Shown here: one piece after another, positions 5,177 through 6,848 of the stretch | How positions within the stretch are numbered: position 1 is the first letter of the stretch | Layout of the letters: each line of letters begins with the position of its first letter | Source: Leptolyngbya sp. NIES-2104 | GTDB lineage: Bacteria > Cyanobacteriota > Cyanobacteriia > Leptolyngbyales > Leptolyngbyaceae | Assembly: GCF_001485215.1 (NCBI RefSeq) | Contig: NZ_BBWW01000001.1 | Coordinates: 4,402,001-4,466,000, forward strand | DNA: 64,000 nucleotides | Reading direction: 5' to 3' | Program-made: the position numbers and the translations under genes | The notes under the pieces: model-generated | Database searches by the model: none | Seen by the model: only the letters and a program-made list of their open reading frames with translations | Told to the model about the DNA's origin: nothing

Positions 5177-5261
5177 TCCCGCTTTCCCAAAACCCAGCAC
5201 CTAAAACCTAACACCCAAAGCCTTCTCCTGTGTTACCCTAGATAAGCTGTCAAAACTCACA

Positions 5262-5329
5262 CATTCAGGATTTCGGGTGGTGAACCTCAAATCACTGCTC
5301 CTGAATGGAAGTTAAACCCGAATAAGGAG
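5262..5329 (+). promoter_or_regulatory. rpsB leader: H-type pseudoknot candidate next to the ribosome binding site
   Basis: Stem 1 pairs CATTCAGGA (5262-5270) with TCCTGAATG (5299-5307), 9 bp perfect. Its loop contains TTCGGGT (5272-5278), which is complementary over 7 bp to ACCCGAA (5316-5322) downstream of the stem, giving the crossing order of a pseudoknot. A small GTGA/TCAC hairpin fits inside the loop. Stem 2 ends one base before the Shine-Dalgarno AAGGAG (5324-5329), with ATG at 5338. Many r-protein leaders are autoregulated; control by S2 here is inference. Confidence 0.55.
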
Positions 5330-5337
5330 AATATCGA

Positions 5338-6120
5338 ATGCCAGTTGTTTCCTTGGCTCAATTGCTTGAGTCTGGAGTCCACTTCGGTCATCAGACCCGG
5401 AGATGGAACCCCAAAATGAGTCCCTACATCTACACCGCCCGCAATGGTGTGCACATCATCGATTTGGTGCAAACTGCACAATTGATGGATTCCGCTTACA
5501 ACTATGTGCGGACGGCTTCAGAACAAGGGAAAAAGTTCTTATTCATCGGCACCAAGCGTCAAGCCGCAGGCATCATCGCTCAAGAAGCAAGCCGCTGTGG
5601 TGCGTACTACGTCAACCAGCGCTGGTTGGGTGGAATGCTCACCAACTGGTCAACGATTAAATCCCGCGTCGATCGCCTTAAAGAGCTAGAACGCCGCGAA
5701 GAAACAGGCGGACTGGATCTTCTCCCGAAAAAAGAAGCTTCCGTTCTGCGTCGTGAACTCGAACGGCTTCAGAAGTATCTGGGCGGTATCAAGAATATGC
5801 GGAAACTCCCGGACGTGATCATCATGGTCGATCAACGCCGGGAATACAACGCCGTTCAAGAATGCCTCAAGCTGAACATCCCGATCGTCGCTTTGCTTGA
5901 TACCAACTGCGACCCCGACACCGTTGATATTCCGATTCCGGCAAACGATGACGCGATTCGATCGATTAAATTGATCGTCGGACGGTTAGCGGATGCAATC
6001 TACGAAGGTCGTCACGGTCAACTCGAAGCCGAAGAAGAATTCGACTACGAAGGCGCAGAAGAAGAGTACGAGTACGACGAAACCGAAGTCACCGAAGGCG
6101 AAGAAGAAAGCGCAGAATAA
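5338..6120 (+). CDS. rpsB: 30S ribosomal protein S2
   Basis: 260 residues with the full S2 signature: the [20 protein letters not shown] start, [12 protein letters not shown] near the middle, and [21 protein letters not shown]2 binds late in 30S assembly and helps recruit S1. The last 30 residues are very acidic (Glu/Asp/Tyr-rich), a tail longer than in E. coli but usual for cyanobacteria. AAGGAG lies 8 bases before the ATG. It forms the standard operon with tsf, 65 bp downstream. Confidence 0.98.
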
Positions 6121-6185
6121 TAGGACAATATGGAGAAGATTTCGGGTCTTCTCCATTCTTTCTAAAACATTGGGAACTCAGGCAA

Positions 6186-6848
6186 ATGGCAGACATTTCA
6201 GCAAAAGCGGTGAAAGAACTGCGCGAAAAGACTGGCGCAGGCATGATGGATTGTAAAAAGGCGCTGTCCGAAAATGACGGCGATATGGAAAAGTCGATCG
6301 ACTGGCTTCGTAAAAAAGGCATCGCATCGGCAGGTAAAAAAGAAGGCAAGGTCACGGCTGAAGGTCTGGTCGATAGCTATATTCACATCGGTGGTCGGAT
6401 CGGTGTACTCGTCGAAGTGAATTGCCAAACCGACTTTGTAGCGCGTAACGAAGCGTTCAAAGAACTGGTTCGCAATATCGCGAAACAAATCGCTGCCAGC
6501 GCGAATGTGGAATATGTCAAGGTTGCGGATATTCCAGCGGATATCGTCGAGCGTGAAAAAGTGATCGAGATGGGCAAAGACGATCTCGCAGGCAAGCCGG
6601 ACAATATTAAAGAAAAAATCGTTCAAGGTCGGATCGATAAGCGCCTGAATGAAATGTGCTTGCTGCCGACTCCTTACATCAAAGACCCGAACATCACCGT
6701 CGAAGAATTGGTGAAGCAAAACGTGGCGCAACTGGGCGAAAACATCCAAATTCGTCGCTTTGTGCGGTTTGTCTTGGGCGAAGGCATCGAGAAGGAAGAA
6801 ACGGATTTCGCGGCAGAAGTCGCGGCACAAATGGGCGGCGCGAAGTAA
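6186..6848 (+). CDS. tsf: Translation elongation factor Ts
   Basis: 220 residues. The N-terminal UBA-like part carries [19 protein letters not shown], followed by the TDFVARNE motif that contacts EF-Tu. EF-Ts reloads EF-Tu with GTP by expelling GDP. The protein is short (about 220 residues against 283 in E. coli), as is normal for cyanobacteria, which lack part of the dimerisation and coiled-coil insert. It is the second gene of rpsB-tsf and is followed by a good intrinsic terminator. Confidence 0.97.

Follow-up and report, generated by a model that had tools for sequence, protein, structure and literature searches.

An RNA upstream of rpsB, the gene of ribosomal protein S2, was described as the 'rpsB motif' by Meyer et al. 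2009 (PMC2704228). In its passages on the motif, that paper includes a pseudoknot in the structure, lists Cyanobacteria explicitly, places nearly every example upstream of rpsB and a few ahead of the gene for EF-Ts, and cites an rpsB fusion in E. coli that is controlled in an S2-dependent manner. For E. coli, the sections of PMC10931766 on this operon report that surplus uS2 represses translation of rpsB-tsf with the assistance of bS1, and that the operator excludes the ribosome binding site, that is, the Shine-Dalgarno sequence (SD) and the start codon. PMC7247131, which deals with 20 ribosomal leaders and was consulted for uS2, rpsB and cyanobacteria, mentions rpsB only once, as part of an operon in Bacteroidia. 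Among the open-access papers searched, we found no experimental test of an S2 leader in a cyanobacterium.

Does a cyanobacterial rpsB gene carry the same leader? We analysed a stretch of 64,000 nucleotides of Leptolyngbya sp. NIES-2104 (the window), to which all positions refer. As in the published motif, the RNA lies directly 5' of rpsB and contains a helix P1, no or at most a short P2 (the motif has little or none in Cyanobacteria) and a hairpin P3, and the P2/P3 junction pairs with the strand 3' of P1 to form a pseudoknot (Table 1). Both P1 and the pseudoknot have compensatory support. Five pseudoknot pairs are predicted in the passages of PMC2704228 on the motif, three in Firmicutes, and seven can form in the window; we saw no structural difference between that description and the leader studied here. 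An earlier note on this DNA knew of no described cyanobacterial rpsB leader of this form, and the idea of an undescribed leader has to be given up, as Cyanobacteria are named in that part of the 2009 paper. The leader of the window is a real, well-conserved and already published RNA that Rfam leaves unannotated here.

Table 1. Coordinates of the rpsB leader and its neighbouring genes in the window
Feature	Position	Strand	Basis
Predicted extended -10, TG-T-TACCCT	5231-5239	+	Conserved TG and spacing in leaders
Conserved CAC, final C is first base of P1	5260-5262	+	Alignment A1
P1 5' arm CATTCAGGA, pairs with 5299-5307	5262-5270	+	Read from sequence; changes on both sides in A1
Pseudoknot 5' arm UUCGGGU (TTCGGGT), pairs with 5316-5322	5272-5278	+	Read from sequence
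P3 hairpin, pairs 5279-5283/5292-5296	5279-5296	+	Nested fold, A1, covariation; length variable in relatives
P1 3' arm TCCTGAATG	5299-5307	+	Read from sequence; covariation
Linker GAAGTTA, P1 to pseudoknot arm	5308-5314	+	Box comparison across leaders
Pseudoknot 3' arm ACCCGAA	5316-5322	+	AACCC in 117/117 leaders
SD AAGGAG	5324-5329	+	Read from sequence
rpsB, ribosomal protein S2, ATG at 5338	5338-6120	+	Pfam PF00318, E 1.6e-97
tsf (EF-Ts), presumed	6186-6848	+	ORF; name also from rpsB-tsf order in E. coli

Direct reading of the sequence gives a perfect P1 of nine Watson-Crick pairs, at exactly the positions claimed in the earlier note. The crossing helix is a perfect match of seven pairs, and the complementarity of TTCGGGT to ACCCGAA just 5' of AAGGAG, likewise claimed before, ends one base ahead of the SD. 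The description of the element as an H-type pseudoknot holds for its crossing helices; because P3, with one G-U among its pairs, sits within the P1 loop, the leader is not a bare H-type fold. CAC at the start of P1 recurs in the E. coli leader and in the Rfam consensus sequences of t44 and rpsB. The last base of P1 and the linker together read GGAAG in the window, GGAGG in 96 of 117 Cyanobacteriia leaders and in that of E. coli, and GGUGG in the consensus of the Rfam family rpsB (RF01815).

Downstream of rpsB lies an ORF that we take to be tsf on account of its N-terminal sequence, presumably in one operon with rpsB. A 10-bp hairpin separates the two genes (6130-6156), and its loop, TTTCGGG, resembles the pseudoknot arm. 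In five other loci of the same genus the stem is kept in four (L016, L017, L018 and L026, not L023), with both arms altered in L017 and L026. The loop letters are kept in none of the five, so we take the likeness as chance and reject the idea that S2 has another site in this intergenic stretch. The hairpin may be an attenuator or a processing site.

Could the two crossing helices be a product of chance? When 5247-5337 was shuffled 20,000 times with its dinucleotides preserved, a stem of at least nine pairs with a crossing 3' helix of at least seven arose in five cases, which bears out the earlier claim that such a combination is improbable. Looser limits, of at least seven and at least five pairs, were reached in 174 of 5,000 shuffles, and it is therefore the length of the helices and, above all, their conservation that carry weight. 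Nested folding of 5235-5345 yields P1 and P3 again, at an ordinary energy (z -0.70, with 49 of 200 shuffles equally good); folding energy alone, being ordinary, gives no support.

Conservation was assessed within the class. Searches with PF00318 yielded rpsB sites in 118 distinct Cyanobacteriia genomes, and we compared the leaders of all but one, 117 including that of the window; in the remaining genome (G026) rpsB lies at a contig edge, and the covariance model R1, described below, finds the element there as well (E 2.4e-15). A looser anchored search, keyed on AACCC or AACCG, choosing the best fit and run without a shuffle control of its own, places the element in 117 of 117 leaders. Its position upstream of rpsB is so by construction, since that is where the leaders were taken from, and the AACCC of the 3' arm, found in every leader, has to be read with the anchor in mind. 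A stricter descriptor (score of at least 11) recognises 114 of the 117 and none of 585 shuffles. By the anchored search the crossing helix has seven pairs in 102 leaders, six in 12 and five in 3, and P1 has all nine pairs in 30, eight in 79, seven in 6, six in 1 and five in 1. This search was misplaced on P1 in L021 and L076; R1 puts L021, L030 and L076 in register. The distance from GGGTG to the 3' arm of P1 ranges from 9 to 106 nt in the anchored search. The P3 position accommodates an additional 70 to 106 nt in L002, L003, L006, L010, L015, L025, L027, L028 and others.

Covariation was scored in alignment A1, made of 57 diverse short-insert leaders picked from the 117. P1 shows double changes at all nine pairs, with 90.6% of cells paired, and its innermost pair fails in 35 of the 57 sequences. 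P3 shows them at five of five pairs, with only 75.7% of cells paired. The pseudoknot varies little within cyanobacteria: 95.5% of its cells are paired, one pair is invariant throughout A1, and double changes occur at three of seven pairs, each in a single sequence. In rows L013, L112 and L138 the pseudoknot arm is out of register by a single column, which lowers the count for this helix rather than raising it. Compensated pseudoknots include ATCGGGT/ACCCGAT (L029), TACGGGT/ACCCGTA (L024) and TGGGT/ACCCA (L095 and L097). The covariation observed in A1 was reached by none of 500 shuffles and by no slid control, and the compensatory changes that the earlier note had proposed looking for are found in both helices. 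Complementarity that arose by chance and serves no function would agree with the ordinary fold energy of the region; the rarity of the combination among the shuffles, its conservation in 117 leaders, 114 of them under a strict rule that no shuffle passes, and the covariation of its helices all speak against it, and we give this explanation practically no credence.

R1 was built from A1 alone, without proteobacteria. Among 41 chosen sources, 170,583 bases in all, it nevertheless matches the rpsB leader of E. coli K-12, at a modest 22.7 bits (E 7.8e-4; L152:274-360), and the match overlaps that of Rfam family t44 (RF00127; L152:261-347). The E. coli rpsB-tsf leader has the same succession of elements as the cyanobacterial ones, namely CAC, P1, GGGGUG, P3, GUGGAGG and AACCCC. 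It differs in a longer P1 region, in a pseudoknot arm farther from the SD, and in a pseudoknot that reads GGGGU/ACCCC, as in the sister-lineage leader L035, instead of the CGGGU/ACCCG of the window. RF01815 resembles the window in the order of its elements, and some cyanobacterial leaders match it in register; its consensus differs in the GGUGG linker and in a pseudoknot CCGGU/ACCGG (pairing read off the consensus letters). Since AAGGAG follows closely on the pseudoknot arm in this consensus too, we rejected contact between pseudoknot and SD as a cyanobacterial peculiarity. RF01815 and RF00127 look like one operator split into two families.

The Rfam search that had also been proposed matched neither RF00127 nor RF01815 in the window or in its own genome. 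The gathering cut-offs are 44 bits for RF00127 and 40 bits for RF01815. We tested 15 leaders, 10 of them from Cyanobacteriia. Four of the 10 match RF01815 in register below its cut-off (L073, L096, L101 and L065), the best being L073 with 31.4 bits; one, L112, matches RF00127 in register with 28.2 bits, also below cut-off; the remaining five have no score with either family. At E <= 10, each of the two gave sub-cut-off matches in 6 of 14 controls, archaea included, and RF00127 exceeded its cut-off in only one control genome. Unrelated families score as well: Six3os1_3, an animal lncRNA, beside the window (E 0.0075) and Hatchet on short leaders (E 0.18). For this reason it is register and R1, rather than Rfam E-values, that carry the case. 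Weak Rfam matches across whole genomes have little meaning, and sub-threshold E-values alone are weak evidence. Both families are labelled as sRNA genes in Rfam, and their cut-offs miss the tested cyanobacterial leaders.

How widely does R1 itself detect the element? At E <= 0.001 it matches 326 of 388 Cyanobacteriia genomes and is without a match in 62. Twenty of the missed genomes were listed and 11 compared. Nine carry the element in their leader (G008, G010, G012, G013 and G016, with leaders L010, L028, L015, L025 and L006; G021, G027, G038 and G049, with leaders L027, L020, L024 and L078), and in eight of these GGGTG and P1 are 90 to 106 nt apart; for G003 and G022 the PF00318 search returned no S2 at all. 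Run on the window's own genome, R1 gives a single strong hit (E 3.2e-19), located at rpsB, with the runner-up at E 0.18. A cis-acting operator predicts just this, and it argues against the view that the leader answers to another ligand (EF-Ts, or bS1 alone) or yields a stable 5' fragment with the role of a small RNA. That view could appeal to the sRNA labels in Rfam, to the annotation of tff in E. coli as a putative small RNA and to the few motif copies ahead of the EF-Ts gene; as nearly every example precedes rpsB in the same passages of PMC2704228, we consider it very improbable.

A promoter is predicted just upstream of the element. The best TANNNT-type -10 has an upstream TG in 96 of the 117 Cyanobacteriia leaders, and a -10-like element lies 20 or 21 nt before CAC in 74; a generic scan of promoters, in which both hexamers were required, found none. 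Judged by this conserved sequence, transcription would start near 5246, upstream of P1. According to the earlier note, a start downstream of 5262 would speak against the element; the promoter-like element lies upstream of that position.

What would the leader do? With good confidence we read it as the rpsB motif in its cyanobacterial form, an operator that acts in cis on translation and at which surplus S2 would block loading of the 30S subunit. Its identity as an S2 leader, the first half of the earlier proposal of an S2 autoregulatory RNA, is upheld by its position, its covariation and its homology to an E. coli leader with reported S2 repression; autoregulation, the second half, we infer for a cyanobacterium. 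The transcript would begin just 5' of P1 and form P1 and P3, and covariation indicates that the P1 loop would then pair with the strand right before the SD. By analogy to E. coli, S2 in excess of free 30S subunits would bind and stabilise the pseudoknot, which adjoins the SD inside the ribosome footprint, so that 30S loading on rpsB would be blocked and expression of the downstream tsf would drop too. When S2 is scarce, the ribosome would open the pseudoknot and translate. Surplus S2 most likely shuts down its own production via the leader in this way. Direct blocking of the SD may not be the mechanism, because the E. coli operator, as described in the sections of PMC10931766 on it, excludes the SD and the start codon and is helped by bS1.

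The same leader could instead be a constitutive fold for ribosome recruitment or standby, with bS1 and the GGAGG box setting a basal rate of rpsB translation and no feedback by S2. The SD-like GGAGG linker found in 96 of the 117 leaders, in all 12 SD-less leaders of family f2 (see below) and in E. coli would suit such a fold, as would the need of the E. coli operator for bS1 reported in those sections. Against it, the relevant parts of both PMC10931766 and PMC2704228 report that S2 feeds back on the homologous leader of E. coli, and the box is not SD-like everywhere: GGAAG in the window and GGUGG in the RF01815 consensus also weaken the idea of GGAGG as a universal second SD. We therefore hold a constitutive fold to be improbable and retain the S2 operator as the preferred reading.

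Outside family f2, all 105 Cyanobacteriia leaders carry an SD-like word, be it GGAG, AGGA or GAGG, 3' of the pseudoknot. In f2 it is missing from 12 of 12 leaders (L112, L137-L139, L141-L143 and L145-L149), and pseudoknot and GGAGG are kept. From its common leader type, f2 appears to be the Prochlorococcus/Synechococcus group. A pattern scan of named genomes, with TTCGGGTG, GGAGG and AACCCGAA fixed, gave at least 118 stretches, 80 of them listed. Among the matches listed, the SD-like word is absent in 42 of 42 genomes of Prochlorococcus, Synechococcus, Cyanobium and their allies (including the record named Microcystis elabens FACHB-917, which has a leader of picocyanobacterial type) and present in 34 of 34 other named genomes. 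Outside these two sets stand L169, a leader with AGGAG whose start the rule used does not recognise; L198, cyanobacterial, with a leader of the picocyanobacterial type and no SD; and L161 (a Bacteroidetes MAG) and L215 (Rhizobium), which we set aside as off-phylum stretches not at rpsB, due to chance or contamination.

Is this loss of the SD peculiar to rpsB? In a crude count with unverified starts, taken before ATG-started ORFs of 200 or more amino acids, SD-like words precede 13 of 258 ORFs in picocyanobacterial loci versus 37 of 110 in the other named loci. As few picocyanobacterial ORFs have such a word, we rejected an rpsB-specific loss and regard the missing SD as a trait of the lineage. 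Where a start was found, the SD-like word is missing before tsf in all 10 loci of f2 and in all 36 of the named picocyanobacteria; it is also absent before tsf in 19 of 39 other loci of the class and 3 of 10 other named ones, which makes tsf alone a poor control. Because the S2 leader persists in picocyanobacteria without an SD, masking of an SD beside the AUG cannot be the mechanism there. It is conceivable, though rather unlikely, that the S2 operator of Prochlorococcus, marine Synechococcus and Cyanobium works SD-free, with the pseudoknot alone 10-17 nt before the AUG and control exerted via the pseudoknot and the GGAGG box. The box would then possibly be a landing site for the ribosome that the fold brings near the AUG.

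We also compared leaders from sister lineages, which belong to other classes of the phylum; 33 were taken from the 103 genomes with an S2 match. The strict descriptor recognises four of them, both at a score of at least 11 (3 of 660 shuffles) and at a score of at least 10 (9 of 660 shuffles). L035, L040 and L046, with GGGU-type arms, look like true members; L126 is doubtful. L032 fails the descriptor, yet R1 matches it (E 3.7e-5). L033, L038, L039 and L049 have CAC, a 7-bp P1 and GAGG without an AACC arm, and in the other 24 of the 33 leaders the element was not convincingly found. By eye, six leaders from another class of the phylum (L045, L050 and L116-L119) have in common a pattern of approximately TGATAGG/CGATAGG, then CCCTAGTC and later CCCGTAGTACAATAC, which may be a different S2 leader. 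A further type of rpsB leader, also seen by eye, occurs in L057, L060, L061, L113 and L114, with an inner CAGTCGGGGC, partly variable letters and a likely closing helix GGACTTTA/TAAAGTCC.

Current Rfam cut-offs leave the leader of the window unannotated, and 117 genomes support one ribosomal-protein operator common to cyanobacteria and proteobacteria. Most ribosomal-protein operators are reportedly narrow in range (a view associated with Fu et al. 2013); if so, such sharing would be unusual. Should the picocyanobacterial operator indeed be SD-free, repression by S2 would be separated from masking of the SD. The natural SD-less variants could serve to tell the two apart as mechanisms of S2 control.
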